DNA of 64,000 nt. Origin: Thermomonas sp. XSG (GTDB taxonomy: Bacteria; Pseudomonadota; Gammaproteobacteria; Xanthomonadales; Xanthomonadaceae). Both the position numbers and the translations under genes were made by a program. Of this stretch, positions 1,281-16,425 are shown piece after piece. Where the stretch lies: contig NZ_CP061497.1 in NCBI RefSeq assembly GCF_014678725.1, positions 2,000,001 to 2,064,000 on the forward strand, given 5' to 3'. Position 1 is the stretch's first letter. Every line of letters starts with the position of its first letter. The notes beneath the pieces are model-generated. The model did not search any database, had not been told where the DNA came from, and saw only the letters and a program-made list of their open reading frames with translations.

Positions 1281-3264
<1,984 letters not shown>

Positions 3265-3346
3265 TGGCTGGGCCTCTTACCTATGCTTCATCGGCTGAAT
3301 CACAAATTCAGGCTGAAGCGCCGCCTCTTGCACAATGGGCTGAGGA
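3265..3346. other. Spacer between merA and ISL3 transposase remnant
   Basis: An 82-bp gap between two convergent genes. It contains a small inverted repeat, CTGAAT and ATTCAG around CACAA (about 3294-3310), and probably the 3' end of the ISL3-family element. Because the other end of that element is missing here, its terminal repeat cannot be defined by comparison. No T-run follows the hairpin, so I do not call it a terminator. Confidence 0.35.
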
Positions 3347-4560
3347 CTATTCGAAATACCCCTCTTCGAGTAGCCGCGCCAGCGTCGGGAGATAGGGGCC
3401 GTACTCGACCACGCGCGTGATCTTCTTCTTGCGCGTTGCCGCCGTGGTCATCCGCTGGAACACGAAGTCCGTGGTCATTGGGTCGTCGTCATCGACCAAC
3501 ACGGTTTCGATAACCGAGCCATCCTTGCGCGCCTTCTTGTCGTAGAGCATGCGCGCCCGAAGCACCTCGAAGCTGTAACCCCTGCCCATGCGGTTCATGT
3601 CTTTGGCCACTCGGTTGACTGATTCAGTATAGGCATTGGTAATCGGCTGCTCGAAGTAGGCGAAGATTTCGTCGTGCCAGTTGTGCACGGCGGTGGTCAG
3701 GTCCTTGAACGTGGCCGCCAATTCGGTCGGAATATTGGCCTGCCACTTCGCGCAGGCGGCTTCTGCTGCTGGGCGGGTCTTCTGATCCCAGATCGACAGA
3801 AATCCTTCCTTGAGCGCGTGGGCTTCGCTTAGGAGCGGGAACTGTTGGAACCATTCCCGCATCCGGTCCATATCTCTCCCTGTCAGGTCGTGCTGCCGCT
3901 TGAGCAGCAGGAACCGCTCGTCCTTGAGTTTGAGGCGCTGCCGGGTGGACAAATCCTTGCGAATGCGCTTGCGCAGCTTCTCCAGCGCGTCGTTCGCCAT
4001 GCGCTGGATATGGAATCGATCGACCACGATCCGGGCCTGTGGCAGCGTGGCGCGCACCACCTGCCGATAAACGTGGTACATGTCCATCGCCACCCACTCG
4101 ACCGAGTCCTTGTCCCGCAGGTCGCGGAAATAGGGCATCAACTCGGCTTTGGCCCGGCTGGGGCGGATATCGAACACGGTCTTGCGCTCGACGTTGGTGA
4201 TCATGGCCCGGTACTGGCCGATGATCTTGAGCTCGTCGATACCCAGCACCCGCGGCGTCCGGAACTGGGTCTTGGCCTCGACCTCCTCGATGAAATCGTC
4301 GAAGACGTGGCGGACCGTCTTTTCGTCCACGGCTACTTCCCGGGCAAGGGCCGCAAAGGTCTTGGAGAAGGACTGGTCGCGGATATAACGCACCAGACGC
4401 GCCGTGGCTTGGCGTTTTCCATCAAGGTCCGCCACAGGCTCAAACAAGGTCTTGGTGCAGCTTGTACAGCGATAGCGACGGCGCTGGATGAAGATCACGA
4501 CGGGTTTGCCGTGCGTCGGTGTGTCCTGAAACGACTGTTCCTGTGAGCCGTGACCGACGT
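3347..4560 (-). pseudogene. ISL3-family transposase, 5' end lost
   Basis: DDE transposase of the ISL3 family. Visible are the zinc-binding RYRCTSC segment, a helix-turn-helix region, and the catalytic residues in GIDELK (first Asp), VVDRFH (second Asp) and NAYTESVNR (Glu). The C-terminus is complete. The reading frame stays open upstream of the GTG at 4498 with family-like sequence (HGSQEQSFQDTPTHGK) until 4560, where the IS3-family element starts. The missing N-terminus should hold the first CxxC pair and about 30 residues. The sequence on the other side of the IS3 element does not restore it, so this copy is broken rather than simply interrupted. Confidence 0.85.
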
Positions 4561-4586
4561 CCCCCCGCCTTCAGTAGCAAGGCGGT

Positions 4587-5436
4587 TTAGAGTCCGGGAT
4601 CAATCGTAGCGGATGCCAGCTGGCTGGCGTAGTCGCTCGGGGTCAGTCCGCCGAGCACCTTCTTGGGTCGCTCCTCGTTGTACTCGCGGCGCCAGGTTTC
4701 GATGACGGTTCGGGCATGCAGCAGGCTGGTGAACCAGTGTTCGTTGAGGCACTCGTCGCGCAGGCGGCCGTTGAGGCTCTCGACATAGGCGTTCTGGTTG
4801 GGCTTGCCCGGCTCGATCAGGCGCATGGCAACACCGCGGGCATGCGCCCATTCGAGCATCGCCTTGCCGCAGAACTCCTTGCCGTTGTCGGTGCGGATGA
4901 CCCGCGGCAGGCCACGTTGCACCGCCAAGCGGTCCAGGATGCGAGCGACGCCATGTCCGGAAATGGCCCGCTCGACCTCGATCGCCACTAGCTCGTGCGT
5001 CGCGTCATCCACGATCACGAGCGCCTTGAGTACCCGGCCATCCGCGGTCCGGTCGAACACGAAGTCCATCGACCAGACCTCGTTGGCACGGCTCGGACGC
5101 AGCAGCGGCTGCCGGTCGGCGACCGGCACCTTCTTCCGCTTCCGGCGCCGCACCTGCAGCTTCGCTTCCTGGTACAGCCGCTCCACGCGCTTGTAGTTCA
5201 CGAGAACTCCCGCCTGCCTGAGCTTGAGGTAGATCATCCCGACGCCGTAGCGCTTGTATCGCTGGGCCAGTGCGAGGATCTGCTCGCGGAGATCGACGTT
5301 GCGATCGGGCGCCGGCTGGTAGCGATACGCGCTGGCACTCATGCGCAGCACCGCCAAGGCTCGCCGCTCGCTCAGCCCCCTGGTCATCATGTAGCGCACC
5401 TGCCCGCGTCGAGCCGGCGCGCTCACCACTTTTTTC
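4587..5436 (-). CDS. IS3-family transposase OrfB (DDE integrase part)
   Basis: Catalytic half of the IS3 transposase, with the retroviral-integrase-type fold. The DDE residues are visible: Asp in SMDFVFD, Asp in IRTDNGKEF, and Glu in [14 protein letters not shown], with the conserved spacing of about 35 residues between the last two. Upstream is the HTH_21 segment ([15 protein letters not shown]). It is read in the -1 frame relative to OrfA and has no obvious start codon of its own near the overlap. It is therefore expected as an OrfAB fusion made by frameshifting; the start given is the slippery site. Confidence 0.93.
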
Positions 5437-5692
5437 GCAGGACGTCCTTGATGACCTCGTTCTCGAGCACCTGCTCTGCCAGGAGCTTCTTCAGCCGCCC
5501 GTTCTCGGTCTCCAGCTCCTTCAAGCGCTTTGCATCGGGCACGCTCATGCCCCCGAACTTGCTCCGCCACAGGTAGTACGACGCCTCGCTGAAGCCGTGC
5601 TTGCGGCACAGCTCCTTGACCGGCAGCCCGGCCTCGGCCTCACGCAGGAAGCCGATGATCTGCTCTTCGGAAAAGCGCTTCTTCACGTCCAA
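5423..5692 (-). CDS. IS3-family transposase OrfA
   Basis: An 89-aa DNA-binding and regulatory subunit. It has an N-terminal helix-turn-helix ([18 protein letters not shown] onward) and a C-terminal leucine-rich coiled coil (about residues 55-80). The gene ends CGA AAA AAG TGG TGA on the minus strand. The A AAA AAG heptamer (minus strand of 5429-5435) is a standard IS3 -1 slippery site that produces the OrfAB transposase. A GGAG ribosome site lies before the ATG at 5692. Confidence 0.92.
5429..5435 (-). promoter_or_regulatory. -1 ribosomal frameshift site of the IS3 element
   Basis: The heptamer A AAA AAG sits in the OrfA frame six bases before its stop codon. The OrfB frame is open across it in -1. 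Position and sequence are those expected for programmed frameshifting in IS3-family elements. Confidence 0.85.
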
Positions 5693-5752
5693 TCTCCTTA
5701 CTCTGGGGAATTGGACTCCAGATCGCCGCGCTACTCAAAACCGGGGGGACGT

Positions 5753-5898
5753 CGCCGGCGGACAATCGAAAGGCGTGCGACGAAATACACACCGAAAGCG
5801 AGCAATCGGGAAACAGCTAGGGAAAAAGAGGGTCTGCACAGGGTTCAGTCTCTCTTCCTCTACCTTAAACAAAAAGGGCGTAGAAGGGCTTGCTAACA
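5753..5898. other. Right junction segment of the island
   Basis: About 146 bp between the IS3 element and the recG remnant, AT-richer than the chromosome. It carries no gene and does not encode the missing ISL3 N-terminus. Its last bases before recG homology are GCTAACA. It therefore holds the right end of whatever larger element brought in the mer island, but the matching left end lies outside the window. Confidence 0.5.
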
Positions 5899-7079
5899 TA
5901 GGCAGCGGCAAGACCGTGGTCGCGGCGATGGCGGCGCTGCTCGCCGTCGCCGACGGGCGGCAGGCAGCACTGATGGCGCCGACCGAACTGCTGGCCGAGC
6001 AGCACCTCAACAACCTGCGCGCCTGGCTGGAGCCGCTGGGCCTGCGCGTGTGCTGGCTGGCCGGCAAGGTCACCGGCAAAGCGCGGACGCAGGCGCTGCA
6101 GGACGTTGCCTCGGGCGCGGCGCAGGTCGTGGTCGGCACCCATGCGCTGATGCAGGAAGGCGTGGACTTCCACGACCTTGCACTGGCCATCGTCGACGAG
6201 CAGCACCGTTTCGGCGTGCACCAGCGGCTGGCCCTGCGCGACAAGGGCAAGGGCAGCGTGCCGCACCAGCTGGTGATGACCGCGACGCCCATCCCGCGCA
6301 CGCTGGCGATGAGCGCCTACGCCGACCTCGATGTGTCGGCCATCGATGAGCTGCCGCCCGGCCGGACCCCGGTGACCACCATCGCGCTGGCCGCGGAACG
6401 TCGCCCGGAACTGGTCGAGCGCATCCGCGTGGCCTGTGCGGAGGGTCGGCAGGCCTATTGGGTGTGCACGATCATCGACGAGTCCGAGGAAGTGGTGGCG
6501 CAGGCCGCGCAATCCACCTTCGAGGCGCTGCAGGCGGCGCTGCCCGGCGTGCGCGTGGCGCTGGTGCACGGGCGCATGAAGGCGGCGGAGAAGCAGGCCA
6601 CCATGCGCGCGTTCAAGCAGGGCGAAGTGGGCCTGCTGGTGGCGACCACCGTGATTGAAGTGGGCGTGGACGTGCCCAACGCCTCGCTGATGGTGATCGA
6701 GAATGCCGAACGGCTGGGCCTGGCCCAGCTGCACCAGCTGCGCGGACGGGTCGGGCGCGGCAGTGCCGCGTCGAGCTGCGTGCTGCTGTACCAGTCGCCG
6801 CTGTCGGCGATGGCGCGCGAGCGGCTGGATACGCTGCGCCAGACCAATGACGGCTTCGCCATCGCAGAGAAGGACCTGCAGCTACGCGGTCCCGGCGAGC
6901 TGCTGGGCACCCGCCAGACCGGGCTCGCCGCGTTCCGCATGGCCGACCTCACGCGCGATGCAGACCTGCTTCCGAAGGTGCATGCACTCGCGGACCGTCT
7001 GCTGGCGGAAGCGCCGCAGCTGGCGGACCGCATCGTCGATCGCTGGATCGGTGGCGCCGCGCGCTTTGCCGCGGCCTAG
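5899..7079 (+). pseudogene. recG: RecG helicase, C-terminal fragment cut at Walker A
   Basis: RecG is a branch-migrating ATP-dependent DNA helicase of about 690-700 aa. Only the last 392 residues remain. Homology starts with GSGKTVVAA; the usual preceding bases for LQGDV and the whole N-terminal wedge and Q-motif regions are absent. Helicase motifs from Ia onward are present: the DEQH box (VDEQHRFG), TATPIPRT (motif III), the second RecA domain with RGRVGRG (motif VI), and the C-terminal TRP/hook region. The frame is open upstream into mobile DNA but has no ribosome site. This piece cannot bind branched DNA or hold a normal P-loop, so it is almost certainly non-functional. Confidence 0.92.
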
Positions 7080-7094: not shown

Positions 7095-7451
7095 TCAGAC
7101 CTCGCAGGCGGGGTCGGCGCCGCAATAGATGCCGTGCAGGGTCTCGATCACGCGCAGTGCCGGGCCATCCGCCAGCGCGTACAGGATCGTCTGCCCTTCA
7201 CGCCGCGTGTTCACCAGCCCGTCGTTGCGCAGTACTGCCAGGTGCTGCGACAGCGCCGACTGGCTGAGGTCCACCTTGGCATTGAGTTCGCCCACCGAGC
7301 GCTCGCCACCAAACAGCAGGCACAGCAGCATCAACCGCTTGTCGTTGGCCAGCGCGCGCAGCAGTCGCGCGGCATCGCCGGCATGGGCGCGCATGGCTTC
7401 CGGGTCCATGCTGGCAGCCGCGGACGGAGGTGTGGGGGGGAGGTTGGACAT
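7095..7451 (-). CDS. ArsR-family repressor, BigR/SqrR type (persulfide sensor)
   Basis: A 118-aa winged-helix repressor. The recognition helix is in LSQSALSQHLAVLRNDGL. The single cysteine pair of the BigR/SqrR subgroup is present at C44 (in MLLCLL) and C110 (in LHGIYC), close to C42/C108 of BigR. In studied members these cysteines form a disulfide or polysulfide bridge with sulfane sulfur, releasing DNA. A further C116 is at the tail. The gene is divergent from the sulfide:quinone reductase operon, with an AT-rich palindrome in between, so it is the likely repressor of that operon and of itself. It is convergent with the recG remnant, 15 bp apart. Sulfur sensing is inferred from the family. 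Confidence 0.87.
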   Translation of the reverse strand: MSNLPPTPPSAAASMDPEAMRAHAGDAARLLRALANDKRLMLLCLLFGGERSVGELNAKVDLSQSALSQHLAVLRNDGLVNTRREGQTILYALADGPALRVIETLHGIYCGADPACEV

Positions 7452-7482: not shown

Positions 7483-7520
7483 TTATATCAGTTGACACTA
7501 ATATAAGCAACAGCTAATTT
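7483..7520 (+). promoter_or_regulatory. Operator and promoter of the sulfide/RND operon
   Basis: An imperfect palindrome has arms TTATATCAG (7483-7491) and CTAATATAA (7498-7506), which pair at 8 of 9 positions. Between the arms lies TTGACA (7492-7497), a perfect -35. A -10-like TAATTT follows at 7515-7520 after 17 bp. A repressor on the palindrome would cover the -35 directly. The AT-rich dyad beside a BigR-type gene is as expected for this family. The site also lies just upstream of the repressor's own start, so autoregulation is likely. Confidence 0.75.
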
Positions 7521-7553: not shown

Positions 7554-8843
7554 ATGGCCAGGATTGTGGTGATGGGCGCCGGGCTTGGTGGCATGAGCGC
7601 GGCCTACGAACTTCGCGAAACGCTGGGCAAGGGGCACGAGATCGTGCTGGTGGGCAACGGCGACAGCTTCGGCTTCACGCCGTCCAACCCCTGGCTGGCG
7701 GTGGGCTGGCGCAAGCGCGACGAGATCAGCCTGGACGTGGCCGAACACGTCGGTCGCCACGGCATCCACTTCGACGGCAGTGGCGTGGCGCAGATCGATG
7801 CCGCCGGCGATGCCGTGATCACCGGCAAGGGCGAGCGCATCGGCTACGACTATCTGCTGGTCTGCACCGGCCCGAAGCTGGCCTTCGAGGAAGTGCCCGG
7901 CACCGGCCCGGACGCCGGCTTCACCCAGTCGGTCTGCACCACCCCCCACGCCGCGCATGCGTGGGAGGCTTACCAGGCATTCCTGCAGAACCCCGGCCCG
8001 GTCGTGATCGGCGCGGTGCAGGGCGCCAGCTGCTTCGGCCCGGCCTACGAGTTCGCGATGATCGTCGATGCCGACCTGCGCAAGCGCAAGCTGCGCGACA
8101 AGGTGCCGATGACCTTCGTGAGCAGCGAGCCGTACATCGGCCACATGGGCCTGGGCGGCGTGGGCGATTCCAAGGGCCTGATGGAATCGGAGATGCGCCA
8201 GCGCCACATCAAGTGGGTGGTGAACAGCAAGGTGGCCGAGGTGCGCGACGGCGAGATGACCGTGGTGCCGCATGACGAAAAAGGCCAGCCGCTGGAGCCG
8301 CAGGTGCTGCCGTTCGCGTTCTCCATGCTGCTGCCGGCGTTCAAGGGCGTCGAGGCGGTGGCCGCGGTGGAGGGCCTGTGCAATCCGCGCGGCTTCGTAA
8401 TCGTGGACAAGCACCAGCGCAGCCCGAAGTTCCCGAAAATCTTCTCGGCCGGCGTGTGCGTGGCGATCCCGCCGGTGGAAGCGACCCCGATTCCCACCGG
8501 CGCGCCCAAGACCGGCTTCATGATCGAGTCGATGGTCACCACCATCGTGCGCAACATCCAGGCCGAACTGAAGGGCGAGACGGCGGACTTCGAAGGCACC
8601 TGGAACGCGGTCTGCCTGGCCGACATGGGCGATACCGGCGCGGCCTTCGTGGCGCTGCCGCAGATCCCGCCGCGCAATGTCACCTGGACCAAGATCGGCA
8701 AGTGGGTGCACCTGGCCAAGATCGGCTTCGAGAAGTACTTCCTCTACAAGATGCGCCACGGCACCAGCGAACCGATCTACGAGAAATACATCCTCGGCCT
8801 GCTCGGCATCGAGCGGCTGAAGGACGTCAAGCGTTCCAACTGA
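7554..8843 (+). CDS. sqr: Sulfide:quinone oxidoreductase, type I-like
   Basis: A 429-aa FAD flavoprotein expected to oxidise sulfide to sulfane sulfur and pass electrons to the quinone pool at the inner membrane. The N-terminal dinucleotide fold is VVMGAGLGGMSAA. The three cysteines used by characterised type I SQRs are present at C128 (QSVCTT), C160 (GASCFGPAYEF) and C354 (NAVCLADMG). There is a C-terminal amphipathic stretch (about 380-415) suited to membrane attachment. It is the first gene after the operator, so it is probably the gene most directly induced. Flavocytochrome c subunits are related, but no cytochrome partner is nearby. Confidence 0.88.
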   Translation: MARIVVMGAGLGGMSAAYELRETLGKGHEIVLVGNGDSFGFTPSNPWLAVGWRKRDEISLDVAEHVGRHGIHFDGSGVAQIDAAGDAVITGKGERIGYDYLLVCTGPKLAFEEVPGTGPDAGFTQSVCTTPHAAHAWEAYQAFLQNPGPVVIGAVQGASCFGPAYEFAMIVDADLRKRKLRDKVPMTFVSSEPYIGHMGLGGVGDSKGLMESEMRQRHIKWVVNSKVAEVRDGEMTVVPHDEKGQPLEPQVLPFAFSMLLPAFKGVEAVAAVEGLCNPRGFVIVDKHQRSPKFPKIFSAGVCVAIPPVEATPIPTGAPKTGFMIESMVTTIVRNIQAELKGETADFEGTWNAVCLADMGDTGAAFVALPQIPPRNVTWTKIGKWVHLAKIGFEKYFLYKMRHGTSEPIYEKYILGLLGIERLKDVKRSN

Positions 8844-8868
8844 ATCCAGACCCCCAAGGAGAAATGAC

Positions 8869-9084
8869 ATGACCCTCGATCGAGCCGTACAGGTATTCGC
8901 CGGCGTGATGGTGCTGATCAGCGTGCTGCTGACCCAGTTCGTCCACCCCAACTTCTTCTGGCTGACCGTGTTCATCGGCGCCAACCTGTTCCAGTCCGCG
9001 TTCACCGGCTTCTGTCCCGCCGCGATGGTGATGAAGAAGCTCGGTATCGGCCGCGGCGACGGCGCGTCCTGCAGCCGTTGCTGA
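8869..9084 (+). CDS. Small DUF2892 membrane protein with CxxC tail
   Basis: A 71-aa protein with two hydrophobic segments (about 6-22 and 28-47) and the family motif GFCPAA. The DUF2892 domain is the membrane part of YgaP, where it is joined to a rhodanese that carries persulfide. Here there is no rhodanese, but the C-terminus ends in C68-S-R-C71. An AAGGAG site precedes the ATG. The gap to sqr is 25 bp and to the RND adaptor 22 bp, so it is inside the operon. A role in moving sulfur compounds across or along the membrane is inferred from family context. Confidence 0.8.
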   Translation: MTLDRAVQVFAGVMVLISVLLTQFVHPNFFWLTVFIGANLFQSAFTGFCPAAMVMKKLGIGRGDGASCSRC

Positions 9085-9106
9085 CGCCGTTGCCTCGGAG
9101 GAGAAG

Positions 9107-10201
9107 ATGATGCGCAAGCTGCGGCCCCTGTTGTTGCTCACTCTTCTGGCCCTGGCGGCCTGCGGCGGCAATGCTCCCGTCGCCACGCCGGCCCTGCCCA
9201 AGGACCTGCCCACGTTCACCGTGGCCGAAGGTAGCGCCTTGCCCGGCCAGGGCTGGGATGGCGTGGTCGAGGCGGTGCGCCGCGCCGATCTCGCCGCGCA
9301 GACGACGGGCCGGGTGTCGGCCATTGCGGTGGACGTGAATGATCGCGTCCGTGCCGGCGAGGTGCTGCTGCGCATCACCGCGGTGGAACAGGACGCCGCC
9401 GCCAACGCCGCGCGCGCTCAGCTGCGCGCCGCGGAGGCATCCGCGGCCGAAGCGGAGCAGAACTACCGGCGCTTTGCCGCGTTGGCCGAGGCGCAGTACG
9501 TGTCGAAGGCGCAGATCGACCAGGCGCGGGCGGCGCGCGACTCCGCGGTGGCGGCACGCAACGCCGCCGCGGCGATGCTGGCGCAGGCCGCGCAGCAGTC
9601 GCAGTACACGGTGGTGCGTGCACCGTTCGATGGCGTGGTGGCGAGGCGTGACGTCGAGCCCGGCGAGACCGTCGCCCCCGGCATGCCGCTGCTGGCGGTG
9701 TACGCGCCGGACGTGTTGCGCGTGGAAGTCGCCATCCCCCAGACCCGCGCCGAGGCGATCCGCAGGGATCCGCGCGCGCAGGTGCTGCTGGGCGATGGCC
9801 GCAGGTTCGCGCCTTCGGAGGTGGTCGTGTTCCCGGCGGCCGATCCGGCCAGCCACAGCGTCAACGTGCGCGTTAACCTGCCGGCGCTGGAGCCGCAGCC
9901 GGCACCGGGCACCACCGCCAAGGTGGTGTTCAGCGCCGATGCGCAGGGCAAGGCCGGCACGCCGGCGGCAGGCGTGCGTATTCCCGCCGCCAGCATCGCC
10001 CAGCGCGGCGAACTGGCGGGCGTGTACGTGGTGCAGGACGGCCGCCTGCTGCTGCGCCAGCTGCGGCTGGGCGCGCGCAGCGGCGATACGGTGGAGGTGA
10101 TCGCCGGGTTGAAGGCGGGCGAGGTGGTGGCCAGCGATCCGGTGGCTGCGACCCAAGCGATTGCTGCGCAGCGCAAGGCGGCGGAGGCGAACCGTGACTG
10201 A
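9107..10201 (+). CDS. RND efflux periplasmic adaptor (MFP) lipoprotein
   Basis: A 364-aa membrane fusion protein. It has a lipoprotein signal with lipobox LAAC (C19), an N-terminal biotinyl-lipoyl half, a coiled-coil hairpin (about 85-165, rich in Ala, Glu and Gln), the second lipoyl half (VRAPFDGVVARRDVEPG), and a beta-barrel and membrane-proximal domain. It would link the inner-membrane pump encoded next to an outer-membrane channel. No TolC-type gene is in the operon, so the channel must come from elsewhere. A GGAGGAG site precedes the ATG. It overlaps the pump gene by 8 bp. Confidence 0.93.
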   Translation: MMRKLRPLLLLTLLALAACGGNAPVATPALPKDLPTFTVAEGSALPGQGWDGVVEAVRRADLAAQTTGRVSAIAVDVNDRVRAGEVLLRITAVEQDAAANAARAQLRAAEASAAEAEQNYRRFAALAEAQYVSKAQIDQARAARDSAVAARNAAAAMLAQAAQQSQYTVVRAPFDGVVARRDVEPGETVAPGMPLLAVYAPDVLRVEVAIPQTRAEAIRRDPRAQVLLGDGRRFAPSEVVVFPAADPASHSVNVRVNLPALEPQPAPGTTAKVVFSADAQGKAGTPAAGVRIPAASIAQRGELAGVYVVQDGRLLLRQLRLGARSGDTVEVIAGLKAGEVVASDPVAATQAIAAQRKAAEANRD

Positions 10202-13200
10202 CGGGCAGCGCCTGGGCATTTCCGGTCGGCTGGCAGCGGCGTTCCAACGCAATCCGCTGACCCCCATCCTGGCGATCATGGGCCTGCTGCTGGGCTTGCT
10301 GGCGGTGGCGATCACGCCGCGCGAGGAAGAGCCGCAGATCGACGTGACGATGGCCAACGTCATCGTCCCGTTCGATGGCGCCGGCGCGCGCGACGTCGAG
10401 CAATGGGTGGCCACGCCGCTGGAACAGAAGCTTTCGGAGATCGAGGGCGTCAAGCACGTGTATTCGATCAGCCGTCCCGGCATGGCGGTGCTGACGGTCG
10501 AATTCGAAGTCGGCGTGCAGCGCCAGCCGGCGCTGGTGCGCCTGTACAACCAGGTGTTCTCGAACGCCGATTTCCTGCCGCAGCGCGCCGGCGTCGGCCA
10601 GCCCATCGTCAAGCCCAAGGGCATCGACGACGTGCCGGTTATGGCGCTGACCCTGTGGAGCGATGATCCGCATATGGACGCCACCGCGCTGGGCGAAGTG
10701 GCGCATACGCTGGAAGCCGACCTCAAGCGCATCCCCGGCACCCGTGATGTCTATACGATCGGTGCGCCCGACCGCAGCGTGCTGGTAACGCTGGACGCGG
10801 CCAGGCTGGCCGCCTACGGGATGGGTGCGAACGATCTGGCGCAGGCGCTGCAAGCCGCCAACGTGGTGCACCAGGCTGGCGAGCGCGTGGACGCCGCCCA
10901 AGGCGCGGTGCCGGTGACGGCGGGGAGCTACCTGGCCAGCGCCGAGGACGTGGCCGGGCTGGTGGTCGGCAGCCAAGGCGGCAAGCCGCTGCTGCTGTCC
11001 GACGTTGCCACCATCGAGGCGCGCGGCGATCTCGCTCGCCAATACGTCTGGCACGGCGCACCCGCGGGGCGCGCCGGGCCGAAGGCCGGCAGCGCGCCGG
11101 CGGTCACCATTGCCATCGCCAAGAAGCCGGGCAGCAATGCCAGCGACATCACCACGGCGATTGCCCAGCGCATCGAACAGCTCAAGGGTGAGCTGATCCC
11201 GCAGGGCGTGCAGGCCAGCGTGACCCGCGACTACGGCGCCAGCGCCAGCGACAAGGCGCAGAAGCTGATCCAGAAACTGGTGTTCGCCACCGGCAGCGTG
11301 GTGCTGCTGGTGCTGTTCGCGCTCGGTTGGCGCGAAGCCATCGTGGTCGGCGCGGCGGTGGTGCTGACCCTGGCGGTCACGCTGTTCGCCTCGAAGGTGA
11401 TGGGCTTCACCCTCAACCGTGTTTCGCTGTTCGCGCTGATCTTCTCGATCGGCATCCTGGTCGACGACGCCATCGTGGTGGTGGAGAACATCCACCGGCA
11501 CATGGCGCGCGGCGGCAAGACCCTGTTCGAGGCGATCCCGCCGGCGGTGGACGAAGTGGGCGGGCCGACCATCCTGGCCACCTTCACCGTGATCGCCGCG
11601 CTGATGCCGATGGCGTTCGTGTCCGGGCTGATGGGGCCGTACATGCGGCCGATCCCGATCAACGCCTCGGTGGGCATGCTGCTGTCGCTGGCCATCGCGC
11701 TGGTCGTGACGCCGTGGCTGTCGCTGAAGCTGCTGTCCCGTCACGGGCATGCGGCCGAAGGCGACCGTGCGCACGAGGGTGCTTCCGACAAGAGCGGGCA
11801 GGCCAGCTGGTTGCATCGGCTGTTCGAGCGGGTGATGTCGCCATTCCTGCGCGGCGACGCCGCGGCGCGCAAGCGCGGCCTGCTGTTCGCCGGCATGGTG
11901 GGGCTGGTGCTGCTGTCCGCGTCACTTGCGGTGTTCAAGCTGGTGGTGCTGAAGATGCTGCCGCTGGACAACAAGTCCGAGGTGCAGGTGGTGGTGGACA
12001 TGCCGGAGGGCAGCACGCTGGAGCAGACCAACGCGCTGCTGGCCGAGCTGGCGGCGAAGCTGGACACCGTGCCGGAGGTGCTGGACTACCAGGCCTACGC
12101 CGGCACCGCGGCGCCGATCAATTTCAACGGCTTGGTGCGGCAGTACTTCCTGCGCAGCGGCAGCAATGTCGGCGACCTGCAGGTCAACCTGGTGGACAAG
12201 CACGCACGCGACCGCCAGAGCCACGAGATCGCGCTGACGATGCGGCCGATGCTGGCCAAGGTCGGGGCGAAATACGGCGCCTCGGTGAAGGTGGTGGAAG
12301 TGCCGCCGGGCCCGCCGGTGCTCTCGCCGCTGGTGGCCGAGGTGTACGGGCCGGACTATGCCGGCCAGCGCAAGGTCGCGCTGGCGCTGGCGAAGGAGCG
12401 CTTCGCGGCCACCGACGGCATCGTCGACGTCGACACCAGCGTGGAGGCGGCCTCCCCGCGCGAGCGGATCGTGGTGGACCGCGAGCGCGCTGCGCGCCTC
12501 GGCGTGCCGCAGTCGGCCATCGCCGACGCCATCGCCATGGGCGTGTCCGGGCTGGACGCCACCTATGTGCACGACGGCGCCTCGAAGTATCCGCGCCCGG
12601 TGCGGCTGCGCCTGTCGGCGCAGGACCAGGCGTCGCTGGCCTCGCTGTTGGCGCTGAAGGTGCGCGGCGGCCAAGGCCAGCTGGTGCCGCTGTCCGAGCT
12701 GGTGCGCGTGGAGAAAGCGACGTGGGACGGCGCCATCCACCACAAGGACGGCCTGCCGGTGGTCTACGTGACCGCGGACGAGGCCGGCGAACTGGACAGT
12801 CCGTTGTACGGCATGTTCGGCATCGTCGGTCAGCTGGGCGACCACAAGGTCGCGGGGCAGCAGCTTGCGCAGACCTTCATCACCCAGCCGGCGGACACCA
12901 GCGGCTACGCGGTGAAGTGGGACGGAGAGTGGCAGATCACCTTTGAAACCTTCCGCGACATGGGCATCGCCTACGCCGCCGGCATGGTGCTGATCTACCT
13001 GCTGGTGGTGGCGCAGTTCCGCAGCTACCTGGTGCCGCTGGTGATCATGGCGCCGATCCCGCTGACCGTGATCGGGGTGATGCCCGGCCACGCCCTGCTG
13101 GGCAAGCAGTTCACCGCTACCAGCATGATCGGCATGATCGCGCTGGCTGGCATCATCGTCCGCAATTCCATCCTGCTGGTGGACTTCATCAACCAGGAAA

Positions 13201-13445
13201 CCGAGCGTGGCGTGCCGCTGGTGGACGCGGTGATCGATGCCTGCGCGGTGCGCGCCAAGCCCATCGTGCTGACCGGCGTGGCGGCGATGCTGGGCGCGTT
13301 CTTCATCCTGGACGATCCGATCTTCAACGGCCTGGCGATTTCGCTGATCTTCGGCATCCTGGTCAGCACCGTCCTCACGCTGGTGGTGATCCCGTTGCTG
13401 TACTACGTGCTGAAGCGCAGGACGGCCGACGCCGGCCATGCCTGA
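10194..13445 (+). CDS. RND efflux pump permease (HAE1/AcrB-like)
   Basis: A 1083-aa proton-driven inner-membrane transporter of the RND superfamily. TM1 is near residue 20 (NPLTPILAIMG), followed by the periplasmic porter domain. The TM4 proton-relay pair D424-D425 lies in SIGILVDDAIVVVEN. There is a second porter domain and TM7-12, with the C-terminal half reading AGIIVRNSILLVDF. The start chosen is GTG 10194, six bases after GGAGG inside the adaptor gene; an earlier in-frame ATG lacks such a site. Its substrate is unknown. Placement between SQR, OsmC and thioredoxin genes suggests a sulfur or thiol compound rather than a drug; that is inference only. Confidence 0.93.
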   Translation: MTDGQRLGISGRLAAAFQRNPLTPILAIMGLLLGLLAVAITPREEEPQIDVTMANVIVPFDGAGARDVEQWVATPLEQKLSEIEGVKHVYSISRPGMAVLTVEFEVGVQRQPALVRLYNQVFSNADFLPQRAGVGQPIVKPKGIDDVPVMALTLWSDDPHMDATALGEVAHTLEADLKRIPGTRDVYTIGAPDRSVLVTLDAARLAAYGMGANDLAQALQAANVVHQAGERVDAAQGAVPVTAGSYLASAEDVAGLVVGSQGGKPLLLSDVATIEARGDLARQYVWHGAPAGRAGPKAGSAPAVTIAIAKKPGSNASDITTAIAQRIEQLKGELIPQGVQASVTRDYGASASDKAQKLIQKLVFATGSVVLLVLFALGWREAIVVGAAVVLTLAVTLFASKVMGFTLNRVSLFALIFSIGILVDDAIVVVENIHRHMARGGKTLFEAIPPAVDEVGGPTILATFTVIAALMPMAFVSGLMGPYMRPIPINASVGMLLSLAIALVVTPWLSLKLLSRHGHAAEGDRAHEGASDKSGQASWLHRLFERVMSPFLRGDAAARKRGLLFAGMVGLVLLSASLAVFKLVVLKMLPLDNKSEVQVVVDMPEGSTLEQTNALLAELAAKLDTVPEVLDYQAYAGTAAPINFNGLVRQYFLRSGSNVGDLQVNLVDKHARDRQSHEIALTMRPMLAKVGAKYGASVKVVEVPPGPPVLSPLVAEVYGPDYAGQRKVALALAKERFAATDGIVDVDTSVEAASPRERIVVDRERAARLGVPQSAIADAIAMGVSGLDATYVHDGASKYPRPVRLRLSAQDQASLASLLALKVRGGQGQLVPLSELVRVEKATWDGAIHHKDGLPVVYVTADEAGELDSPLYGMFGIVGQLGDHKVAGQQLAQTFITQPADTSGYAVKWDGEWQITFETFRDMGIAYAAGMVLIYLLVVAQFRSYLVPLVIMAPIPLTVIGVMPGHALLGKQFTATSMIGMIALAGIIVRNSILLVDFINQETERGVPLVDAVIDACAVRAKPIVLTGVAAMLGAFFILDDPIFNGLAISLIFGILVSTVLTLVVIPLLYYVLKRRTADAGHA

Positions 13446-13466
13446 GCAAATGAATGGAGCAACACG

Positions 13467-13943
13467 ATGAGTGAAGACGACGGCATCCGGCTGCTGCTGG
13501 AACAGGAAGGACCCTACGCGTTCCGGATCAGTTTCGAGGGCGCCGGGCTGGACGCACTGCACACCGATGAAAGCGCGCCACTGGGCGCGGGCGCGGGTCC
13601 GAACCCCTCACACCTGCTGCTGGCGGGAGTGGCCAACTGCCTATCGGCCAGCCTGCTGTTCGCGCTGCGCAAGTTCAAGAACACGCCCGGCCCGATCCGC
13701 ACCGAAATCGTGGCGCACAAGGCGCGCAACGAGGCCGGCCGCTGGCGCATCCCGCGCGCCGAGGTGGCAATCCGGCTGTCCGATGCCGCCGCCGGGCTGG
13801 AACGCTTCGACCGCGTGCTGGCGCAGTTCGAGGAGTTCTGCATCGTCACCCAGAGCGTGCGCGAAGGCATGCAGGTGAACGTGCGCATCATCGATGCCGA
13901 TGGCGCCGAGTATGTGCCCGGGGGCGCGGGGGAGGCCGCATGA
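13467..13943 (+). CDS. OsmC/Ohr-family thiol peroxidase-like protein
   Basis: A 158-aa OsmC-fold protein. The two reactive cysteines of the family are present at C58 (GVANCLSASL) and C125 (EEFCIVTQS). Classical members reduce organic hydroperoxides with thiol help; OsmC-type proteins have also been linked to polysulfide removal. It is read 21 bp after the RND pump and overlaps trxC by four bases. It is therefore cotranscribed with a reductant and with sulfide oxidation genes. The protein is closer to the general OsmC group than to Ohr, judging by the VANCLSASLLFAL segment. Confidence 0.85.
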   Translation: MSEDDGIRLLLEQEGPYAFRISFEGAGLDALHTDESAPLGAGAGPNPSHLLLAGVANCLSASLLFALRKFKNTPGPIRTEIVAHKARNEAGRWRIPRAEVAIRLSDAAAGLERFDRVLAQFEEFCIVTQSVREGMQVNVRIIDADGAEYVPGGAGEAA

Positions 13944-14377
13944 GCGCGCCGTCCACCATCGTCGCCTGTCCGTCCTGCAACGGCCTGAACCGCGTGCCCG
14001 ATGCGCGGCTGGCGGAAGCGCCGAAATGCGGGAAGTGCGGCGCGGCGCTGTTCGCGGCGCATCCGCTGGCGCTGGACGTTGCCGGCTTCCATGCCCACGT
14101 CGAGCGCGCCGAGCTGCCGGTACTGGTCGACTTCTGGGCGCCGTGGTGCGGCCCGTGCCGGATGATGGCGCCGCAGTTCGAGGCCGCCGCCATGCAATTG
14201 GAACCGGCGCTGCGGCTGGCCAAGGTGGATACCGAGGCGCAGCCCGCGCTGGGCAGCCGCTTCGGCATCCGCAGCATTCCCACCCTGGTGCTGTTCCGCC
14301 AGGGCCGCGAGCTGGCGCGCCAGGCCGGTGCGATGGGCGCGGCTGATATCGTGCGCTGGACGCGCCAGTACCTTTGA
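13940..14377 (+). CDS. trxC: Thioredoxin TrxC (thioredoxin 2)
   Basis: A 145-aa cytosolic disulfide reductase. It starts with a zinc ribbon (C10-P-S-C13 and C30-G-K-C33) typical of thioredoxin 2, followed by the thioredoxin fold with the active site WCGPC (C70, C73) and the cis-Pro in IRSIPT. Thioredoxins reduce persulfides and release sulfide, which fits this operon. The ATG at 13940 overlaps the end of the OsmC gene (ATGA). TrxC is elsewhere part of OxyR-type oxidative responses; here no OxyR site is evident. Confidence 0.93.
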   Translation: MSAPSTIVACPSCNGLNRVPDARLAEAPKCGKCGAALFAAHPLALDVAGFHAHVERAELPVLVDFWAPWCGPCRMMAPQFEAAAMQLEPALRLAKVDTEAQPALGSRFGIRSIPTLVLFRQGRELARQAGAMGAADIVRWTRQYL

Positions 14378-14393
14378 TTGCAGGAGTGTTTCC

Positions 14394-14753
14394 GTGAGCC
14401 AGTCCTATCCCGAGCTGATCGACGACCTCAATGCCGCCATCGGCAAGCTGCGCGAGGGTGCCCCGGATCCGATGCGGGGCTTCTCCGCATTGGCCCGCGA
14501 AGCGCTCAAGCCCGGCGCGCTGGACGTGAAGACCAAGGAGCTGATCGCGATCGGGATTGCCATCGCCACGCGTTGCGACGGCTGCATCGGCTTCCACGCC
14601 AAGGCCGCGATCAAGGCCGGCGCGACCCGCGAAGAAATCCTCGAAACCCTGTCGATGGCGATCTACATGGGCGCCGGCCCGTCGATGATCTACGCGGCGG
14701 AAGCGCTGCGCGCCTTCGACGAACTTGCCCCTTCGCAGGAGGCGCAGGCATGA
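14394..14753 (+). CDS. AhpD-like carboxymuconolactone decarboxylase-family protein
   Basis: A 119-aa all-helical protein of the CMD/AhpD family. The CxxC motif of the redox-active branch is present as C61-D-G-C64 with a nearby His68 (CDGCIGFHAK), as in AhpD. It is therefore more likely a thiol-disulfide enzyme than a lactone decarboxylase. The start is GTG 14394, 16 bp after trxC, with CAGGAG upstream. The end overlaps the next gene (ATGA), so translation is coupled. A possible partner is the OsmC or TrxC protein of the same operon. Confidence 0.85.
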   Translation: MSQSYPELIDDLNAAIGKLREGAPDPMRGFSALAREALKPGALDVKTKELIAIGIAIATRCDGCIGFHAKAAIKAGATREEILETLSMAIYMGAGPSMIYAAEALRAFDELAPSQEAQA

Positions 14754-15271
14754 GCATGCTGCGGCGAATCGTGTGGCCTGCACTGCTGCTGGCGGTTGCG
14801 CTGGCGACCGGCTGCGCGCATGCGCCGCCAGCGGCGACCTCGGTGGCGCTGCTGCAGCCGCTGCCGGGGCTGTACACCGCGGGCCAGCCGGCAGCCAGCG
14901 ACTGGGCGGCAATCAAGGCGCGCGGCGTGCGTACCGTGGTCAACCTGCGCGCACCGGGCGAGCTCAAGGACCGCGACGAGGCTGCCGAAGTCCGCGCGGC
15001 CGGCCTGCGCTATGTCGAAATCCCGGTCAGCGGCGCCGAAGGCATCAATCCGGCCAATGCGCGCGCCCTGCATGCGGCGCTCGCGCCGGCCCACGGTGGC
15101 GGCGGGGTGCTGGTGCATTGCGCCAGCGGCAACCGCGCCGGTGCGCTGCTGGCGCTGGAACAGCGCGATTTCGACGGTGTAGCTGCGGAACGCGCGCTGG
15201 AGATCGGCAAGTCTGGCGGCGTCACCGGGCTGGAAGGCAAGCTCCGGCAGGCGCTGGGGATCGCGGAGTAA
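14750..15271 (+). CDS. DUF442/TIGR01244 phosphatase-fold lipoprotein, putative sulfurtransferase
   Basis: A 173-aa protein with a lipoprotein signal (lipobox LATG before C22) and a dual-specificity-phosphatase-like domain. The P-loop is HCASGNRAG (C124). The general-acid Asp loop of true phosphatases is not obvious. The DUF442 group occurs fused to ETHE1-type persulfide dioxygenases in the BLH protein of BigR operons and is often annotated as a sulfurtransferase. C124 could therefore carry a persulfide. The lipobox places it outside the cytoplasm, which is unusual for this domain. It overlaps both neighbours in the operon. Confidence 0.78.
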   Translation: MSMLRRIVWPALLLAVALATGCAHAPPAATSVALLQPLPGLYTAGQPAASDWAAIKARGVRTVVNLRAPGELKDRDEAAEVRAAGLRYVEIPVSGAEGINPANARALHAALAPAHGGGGVLVHCASGNRAGALLALEQRDFDGVAAERALEIGKSGGVTGLEGKLRQALGIAE

Positions 15272-16401
15272 TGGGCGCACGCATCACCGTCGTCGGCGCT
15301 GGCTTCGCCGGCCTGACCGCCCTGCGGACGCTGCGCAGGCACGCACCCGATGCTTCGCTGACGCTGGTTGCGCCGCGTGCCGAGCTGCATTACCTGCCGG
15401 GCACGATCTGGATCCCGTCGGGCCTGCGCAGCCGTGCCGACCTGGTGGTTCCACTGGACGACTTCCTGCGCCGTGAACGCATCAGCTTCCATCGTGCGCG
15501 CGCCACCGGGCTGTCGGCGGACGCGCGCGTGCTGCACACCGAAGCCGGCGACGTCGCCAACGACGGCCTCGTCATCGCCAGCGGCGCGCGCTTCCTGCGC
15601 AAGCTGCCCGGCATCGAACACGCCATCATTCCCTGCGAGGGCGTGGACGCAGGCGAGGCGATCCGCGACCGGCTGATCGCCCTCGACGGCGGCACCCTCT
15701 GCTTCGGCTTCGGCAGCAACCCGAACGAACCCGTCGCCATGCGCGGCGGCCCGATGTTCGAGTTCACGTTCGGCATCGAGACCCTGCTGCGCAAGCAGCG
15801 CCGGCGCGACCGTTTCCGGCTGGTGTTCTTCAGCCCGTCGGAAAAGCCGGGCCAGCGGCTGGGCGACAAGGCCGTCGGCTTGATCCTGGGCGAGATGCGC
15901 AAGCGCGGCATCGACACCGTGCTGGGCGAGAAGCCGCAGCGCTTCGAGGTCGACGCGGTGCAGCTGGAGCGCACCCGCATCGACAGCGCCATGACCCTGT
16001 TCATGCCGGGGCTGACCGGGCAGGCGTGGCTGGACGACACCGCCCTGCCACGATCCCCCGGCGGTTTCGTGCAGGGCGACGCGCAGTGCCGCGTACCGGG
16101 TTTCGCCTGCACTTTCGTGGCTGGCGACGGCGGCAGTTTCCCGGGGCCGGACTGGCTGCCCAAGCAGGCGCACCAGGCCGACCTGCAGGCGGAGGTGGCC
16201 GCTCGCAACCTGCTGCGTGCCCTGCGCGGCGAGCCGGCGGAGGAAGCCTTCACCGCCGAACTGGTATGCATCGTCGATACGCTGGATCGCGGTCTGCTGG
16301 TGACCCGCAAGGCCGGCGGCGGCCGCGCGCTGCCGCCGCTGCGCATGATGCACTGGGCCAAGTCCGCGTTCGAGAAGCGCTACCTGCGGCGCTATCGCTG
16401 A
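15271..16401 (+). CDS. Second SQR-like FAD oxidoreductase
   Basis: A 376-aa flavoprotein of the SQR/FCSD family with the N-terminal motif VVGAGFAGLTAL. It is shorter than the first SQR of the operon and only distantly similar. Three cysteines occupy the equivalent positions (C122, C144, C333). The FAD-binding AGDGG segment lies near residue 285. The C-terminus is basic and aromatic (HWAKSAFEKRYLRRYR), suited to membrane contact. It may use another sulfur donor or acceptor. It is coupled to the preceding gene by TAATG. It is the last gene of the operon; the next gene has its own promoter. Confidence 0.83.
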   Translation: MGARITVVGAGFAGLTALRTLRRHAPDASLTLVAPRAELHYLPGTIWIPSGLRSRADLVVPLDDFLRRERISFHRARATGLSADARVLHTEAGDVANDGLVIASGARFLRKLPGIEHAIIPCEGVDAGEAIRDRLIALDGGTLCFGFGSNPNEPVAMRGGPMFEFTFGIETLLRKQRRRDRFRLVFFSPSEKPGQRLGDKAVGLILGEMRKRGIDTVLGEKPQRFEVDAVQLERTRIDSAMTLFMPGLTGQAWLDDTALPRSPGGFVQGDAQCRVPGFACTFVAGDGGSFPGPDWLPKQAHQADLQAEVAARNLLRALRGEPAEEAFTAELVCIVDTLDRGLLVTRKAGGGRALPPLRMMHWAKSAFEKRYLRRYR

Positions 16402-16419
16402 CCGATCGCCGCTTGCGGT

Positions 16420-16425
16420 CATAAT
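16420..16425 (+). promoter_or_regulatory. Probable -10 element of the nucleoside hydrolase gene
   Basis: CATAAT followed by GCGG stands 6 bp before the ATG at 16432, a spacing that would give a leaderless or nearly leaderless mRNA. No convincing -35 is present at 16-18 bp. Confidence 0.45.

Follow-up and report, generated by a model that had tools for sequence, protein, structure and literature searches.

A probable type VI sulfide:quinone oxidoreductase encoded with a type I enzyme beside a BigR-like repressor in Thermomonas sp. XSG

Type VI sulfide:quinone oxidoreductases (SQRs) have been studied through TrSqrF of Thiocapsa roseopersicina, and the passages of that work used here describe an enzyme that oxidises sulfide and reduces quinone, with C121 and C332 as its studied cysteines (PMC9666304). 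The FAD is modelled as attached via C121, C332 is said to share in the transfer of the polysulfur chain, and the quinone site contains V331, I333, F366, and W369, the last of which touches the quinone tail (PMC9666304). The same passages ascribe to type VI enzymes an unusual cysteine pattern, a short C-terminal domain that ends in a single helix, as is also the case for SqrE of A. ambivalens, and activity at high sulfide (PMC9666304). Carriers of type F SQRs are reported among green sulfur bacteria, Proteobacteria, Aquificaceae, and Cyanobacteria, and some genomes are already known to encode more than one type of SQR (passages of PMC5776472). The type F enzyme of Chlorobaculum is quoted there as having a role at sulfide concentrations of at least 4 mM, but in a cyanobacterium with a type F enzyme as its sole SQR, the apparent KM was fitted at only 0.05-0.2 mM (PMC5776472). 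Among regulators, BigR of Xylella is described as responding to sulfide or polysulfide by modification of C108, formation of a disulfide, and release of the DNA (passages of PMC5823870).

We analysed a window of 64,000 nucleotides from Thermomonas sp. XSG, the genome of which is a single contig of 3.05 Mb. Nine genes on the plus strand, from 7554 to 16401, either overlap or are separated by 16-25 nt. They encode, in this order, a type I SQR of 429 amino acids (SqrA; 7554..8843), a YgaP-like transmembrane-domain protein of 71 amino acids (8869..9084; PF11127), an RND periplasmic adaptor (9107..10201; TIGR01730 over the cut-off), an RND pump (10161..13445 for the longest frame, with an unsure start codon; PF00873, E 1.4e-154), an OsmC-like protein (13467..13943; PF02566), thioredoxin 2 (TrxC, 13940..14377; NF008229 over the cut-off), an AhpD/carboxymuconolactone-decarboxylase-family protein (14394..14753), a stand-alone, sulfurtransferase-like protein of the DUF442/BLH_phosphatase fold (14750..15271; PF04273 over and TIGR01244 under the cut-off), and a second SQR-family protein, here called SQR2, in an open frame of 376 amino acids (15271..16401). 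A first-pass annotation had described two SQR-like enzymes at both ends of one operon. The two genes do lie at the ends of the nine tightly packed genes, which are probably transcribed jointly, but the place of SQR2 as the last gene is unsure, since a nucleoside hydrolase gene that may be co-transcribed with the cluster follows on the same strand, 27 nt 3' of SQR2. A promoter scan reported one promoter-like site between these two genes, at 16398-16425 (0.5 expected). On the other side of the cluster, recG is split by about 35 kb, with profile positions 2-268 at C1:1970226-1971047 and 264-627 at C1:2005895-2006986. Beside this break (window 1570-7079; genome C1:1970226-2006986) are genes for a merA-like reductase and for ISL3-like and IS3 transposases, the names merA and ISL3 being given by eye.

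SqrA is an ordinary SQR of type I. Among solved structures, the A. ferrooxidans SQR is nearest to it (E 1.5e-170), and in the tree it groups with the A. ferrooxidans and A. aeolicus enzymes at a support of 100/98. The three type I cysteines (C128, C160, and C356 in A. ferrooxidans) are present as C128, C160, and C354, and they are kept in seven of seven type I rows. Both the frame and the alignment thus bear out the first-pass description of this enzyme as a 429-residue protein with the cysteines of type I. The same annotation had called the second enzyme very different from the first, and the two are indeed only 26% identical over 415 columns. Typing both by alignment and tree, as it had proposed, gives type I for SqrA; residues, model, and tree together most likely assign the two divergent enzymes of this one cluster to different types, I and VI. 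For SQR2, the tree holds no named type VI sequence, and the assignment as a type VI SQR (SqrF), which we consider the most likely one, comes from published residues and traits.

The residues C122, V332, C333, I334, and F367 of SQR2 correspond to C121, V331, C332, I333, and F366 of TrSqrF, each being numbered one higher in SQR2, so that both cysteines and three of the quinone-site residues have counterparts, while the counterpart of W369 is R370. The C-terminal end of the SQR2 model forms a single helix, 358-373, as described for type VI. To place these residues in the family, we compared 120 members, namely 92 distinct full-length proteins and 28 further proteins sampled across the phylum, with identities as low as 44%. 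Identical proteins were merged first, which reduced 111 loci to 98 distinct proteins. One locus with the gene in pieces (L024) and six type I rows were kept out of the set of 92, and the protein's own copy (L113) and a type I row (L141) out of the set of 28. All six published TrSqrF residues are matched in seven of the 120 relatives, six of these at identical numbering, and five of the seven are from tubeworm endosymbionts and are not independent. The position of V332 is a valine in 36/92 and 5/28 members, the position of F367 is a leucine in 17/28, and the counterpart of W369, an arginine in SQR2, is a tryptophan in 19/92 and 8/28 relatives. This variability of the quinone site inside the family counts against the type VI assignment.

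The first-pass annotation had suggested that the co-occurrence of two SQR-like enzymes reflects separate steps, with SQR2 acting on persulfide or glutathione polysulfide, or in the reverse direction. SQR2 does co-occur with an ordinary SQR and with proteins that handle sulfane sulfur, which speaks for such a role. However, the type VI enzyme that has been studied takes sulfide as its substrate and quinone as its acceptor (passages of PMC9666304), and the valine, cysteine, isoleucine, and phenylalanine around the quinone site of that enzyme are all present in SQR2. We therefore regard this alternative as improbable, and from the sequences compared here, different substrates or forward and reverse chemistry for the pair appear to have no support.

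A second alternative to a type VI SQR is that SQR2 belongs to another branch of the wider flavoprotein superfamily, such as NDH-2 or CoA-disulfide reductase. Pfam assigns only Pyr_redox_2 to SQR2, and enzymes of the NDH-2 type are also listed by Foldseek and VIA, the best being an integrative model of YjlD (Z 39.4). In the VIA list, this NDH-2-like protein is tied with flavocytochrome c (39.9) and the human SQR (39.2). All three stand beneath the type I SQRs, which head the list for the SQR2 model (Z 43.5-44.3), and a type I SQR is thus the closest fold. The predicted model, built from 49 aligned sequences, has a mean pLDDT of 95.8 and superimposes on the A. aeolicus SQR with an rmsd of 1.9 A over 368 residues (Z 44.3). 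Type I SQRs also come first by sequence. SQR2 aligns end to end with the A. ferrooxidans SQR (phmmer, E 3.9e-17), and its family profile matches the SQRs of A. aeolicus (E 1.3e-34) and A. ambivalens (E 5e-32). Since both SQR cysteines are retained as well, membership outside the SQRs is very unlikely. Judged by its sequence and its two cysteines, SQR2 is a member of the SQR/FCSD family, and the first-pass annotation's own ground for giving up its reading, that the second protein would align outside this family, did not materialise in sequence, fold, or cysteines. In the NCBIfam scan of SQR2, no type VI model was found, and the best model was that of a type III selenoprotein, far under its cut-off. 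A phage search with SQR2 gave only N-terminal matches, which come from two records of Staphylococcus and span 30% of the query at 29.7% identity, and the 10 matches of a plasmid search are all distant.

Within the SQRs, the type VI assignment is consistent with the tree, which comprises 49 rows and takes in 34 of the 120 family rows. These 34 rows and 10 type I rows are placed on opposite sides of one branch with a support of 100/99. Proteins from Chlorohelix and Pseudanabaena, which have the same cysteine and arginine pattern as the SQR2 family, are its sisters at 93/84 in this tree, which carries a long-branch warning. The clade is sharply bounded, as matches of at least 494 bits occur in 28 of 398 genomes of the phylum and the score then drops to 88 bits. 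Type I, type II, and type V were each considered for SQR2 and rejected. A protein from Haloarcula, for which the nearest solved chain is the human type II enzyme, and one from Rubrobacter, for which it is the A. ambivalens enzyme, both contain a cysteine just ahead of the conserved P..E stretch but lack one at the position of C128. On a Chlorohelix plasmid (L142:2016-5122), genes for an ArsR regulator, a glutaredoxin-domain protein, a carboxymuconolactone-decarboxylase-family protein, and an SqrF-like protein follow in a row, which is a similar set in another phylum.

The cysteines separate SQR2 from the type I enzymes. C122, which aligns with C128 of the type I SQRs and of the A. ferrooxidans enzyme, and C333, which aligns with C354 of SqrA, are invariant in all members of both sets (92/92 and 28/28). 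Position 144 is a cysteine in 25/92 and an alanine in 67/92 members of the larger set, and a cysteine in 0/28 of the other; across both sets, it is an alanine or a valine in 95. All 25 carriers of C144 are the protein itself or close Xanthomonadaceae-type loci, and this cysteine therefore seems to be lineage-specific. It aligns with V151, a strand valine of SqrA, and falls in the strand 141-147 of the SQR2 model. Between residues 148 and 164, where the redox-active C160 would be expected, none of the 120 members has a cysteine, and the third cysteine that defines type I is thus lacking in SQR2. R158 is present in 120/120 members, inside a strongly conserved segment, NPxEPxAxRGGPxFE. It stands opposite C160 in three alignments, and in larger alignments C160 is opposite a gap; because the placement of the gap differs, a replacement of C160 by an arginine depends on the alignment, while the lack of a cysteine at this site does not. 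C273 is found in 91/92 but only 18/28 members. We take the unusual cysteine pattern of type VI enzymes to be the absence of C160, and SQR2, with counterparts of C121 and C332 and none of C160, conforms to it. Its three cysteines at C122, C144, and C333, which had been read as the three SQR cysteines, all exist, and conservation in orthologues, on which that reading had been made to depend, extends to C122 and C333 but not to C144. That SQR2 is a three-cysteine enzyme like type I, with C144 in the role of C160, is scarcely credible, as C144 does lie 14 residues ahead of the arginine that faces C160 in three alignments but is ruled out as its counterpart by the alignments and by its restriction to 25 closely related proteins.

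Upstream of sqrA and divergent from the cluster is a gene on the minus strand (7095..7451) for an ArsR-family repressor with an HTH_5 domain. Its score against the BigR model NF040642 is 97.3 bits, under the curated cut-off of 155, and we therefore refer to it as BigR-like rather than BigR. C44 and C110 are 66 residues apart, which is the spacing of C42 and C108 in BigR, and the pair is found in 16 of 16 rows (two of them the protein itself; only rows above 55% identity). Between the repressor gene and sqrA, there is an operator-like inverted repeat, TTATATCAG-TTGACA-CTAATATAA (7483..7506), for which 0 occurrences were expected in 100 shuffles. It overlaps the proposed -35 element (TTGACA) of the sqrA promoter, the proposed -10 element (TAATTT) of which is located 17 nt beyond. 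The promoter scan did not report this promoter because its -10 element is too far from the consensus. At least 17 of the 24 bases of the repeat are kept in 14 of 22 loci, the window's own copy included. This level is not reached in L028, L029, and L030, in four loci of the Burkholderiales (L058, L061, L083, and L092), or in L095, the contig of which begins inside sqrA and offers no real test. Read from these features, the cluster looks as if it were controlled by sulfide.

The arrangement was compared in 14 close loci with an SQR2 at least 74% identical and at least 9.7 kb of sequence upstream. Genes for the repressor, the type I SQR, the RND adaptor, and the RND pump are located upstream of SQR2 in 12 of these; one exception (L048) has only the RND genes and the other (L042) neither. 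A more distant set of 61 named loci (L050-L111, L095 excepted) includes four with a type I SQR (63-65%) near SQR2 and six with an RND pump of at least 59% there; several others have weak RND matches only, and many of the contigs are short. By these counts, the grouping of SqrA, RND, and SqrF genes is stable in close relatives and leaves traces in Burkholderiales. In Thermomonas, Luteimonas, and Dokdonella, there are named strains with both SQR genes next to a single repressor gene and operator. Within the genus, SQR2 is present in 17 of 24 genomes, in one of them in pieces, and was not seen in the other seven, some of which are incomplete. In the genome with the fragmented gene (L024, G008), the SqrF gene reads in pieces only, with a stop inside one piece. 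The cluster of Thermomonas haemolytica contains a third SQR-family gene (L037:7607-8911) for a protein of 434 amino acids with the motif AACEGP, as in the A. ambivalens enzyme. Contigs labelled Ottowia and Alicycliphilus encode, directly 3' of SqrF, an SQR-like protein with the motif LKCAGAP (L050:10929-12383 and L051:8070-9485) and, by eye, a Tat-like N-terminus. Cytochrome bd-like genes, named by eye, lie no more than eight genes away from SqrF in 16 of 91 loci for subunit II and 11 of 91 for subunit I; for either subunit, six of these are on the strand of SqrF. A search of the Thermomonas sp. XSG genome gave no subunit I.

Taken as a whole, we have good confidence in the explanation that SQR2 is a two-cysteine type VI SqrF, co-encoded with SqrA next to a BigR-like repressor, and that the two enzymes would divide low and high sulfide between them. 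Two sulfide ranges are the simplest reading of the pair, with SqrA most likely handling low and SqrF high sulfide. The difference between the types that has been published is likewise one of sulfide concentration, although the sub-millimolar apparent KM of the type F cyanobacterium speaks against a high-sulfide role. SqrF would be a membrane-bound FAD enzyme that forms sulfane sulfur by oxidising sulfide and uses its two cysteines to deliver the electrons to quinone. C122, as the counterpart of C121 in TrSqrF, would attach the FAD, and C333, as the counterpart of C332, would carry the polysulfur chain. Rising sulfide would lead to modification of the repressor cysteines, and the repressor would leave the operator over the -35 element. 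SqrA and SqrF would then be made together with TrxC, OsmC, the AhpD-like, DUF442, and YgaP-like transmembrane proteins, which may serve in thiol and persulfide handling, and with the RND pump; such induction by sulfide is probable, and a cargo can be suggested for the pump. It is conceivable, though doubtful, that the cluster is a system for sulfide oxidation and export, in which the SQRs would form sulfane sulfur across a broad span of sulfide concentrations, with the thiol proteins as its carriers and the RND pump as the exporter of a persulfide or polysulfide product. If so, this would be a new class of cargo for an RND pump.

Both enzymes are of known SQR kinds, and the pairing of SqrA with SqrF is useful rather than revolutionary. 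It was less expected that an RND pump and proteins for thiols and persulfides are encoded with them, downstream of a conserved operator-like promoter. A literature search, which tested the point weakly and covered mostly listings and passages of PMC5823870 and PMC9774250, gave no cluster in which two SQRs are combined with an RND pump and a BigR-like repressor. The cluster connects an RND pump with what is probably a response to sulfide, is a small natural system in which to ask why two types of SQR are retained in bacteria, and draws attention to a type VI-like family with an invariant arginine (of alignment-dependent placement) and no cysteine where type I has a redox cysteine.

Compared with the type I SQRs, SQR2 has the full-length fold and the counterparts of C128 and C356, but it differs in the lack of a C160 counterpart, the inserted NPxEPxAxRGGP segment, and the one C-terminal helix. 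The likeness to TrSqrF includes the counterparts of C121 and C332, the V-C-I motif, the phenylalanine of the C-terminal helix, and the single short helix itself. The differences are the arginine in place of W369, an activity that for SQR2 is a prediction from sequence, and the genomic context, as the host of TrSqrF has SqrD and SqrF, whereas SQR2 adjoins SqrA in a Xanthomonadaceae cluster. With the bigR operon of Xylella fastidiosa and Agrobacterium, as described in passages of PMC5823870, the cluster shares a BigR-type repressor with two cysteines 66 residues apart and a DUF442-type protein. It is set apart from that operon by the lack of a fused Blh over the cut-off in its own genome, and by the two SQRs, the RND pump, OsmC, TrxC, and the AhpD-like protein that accompany the repressor here.
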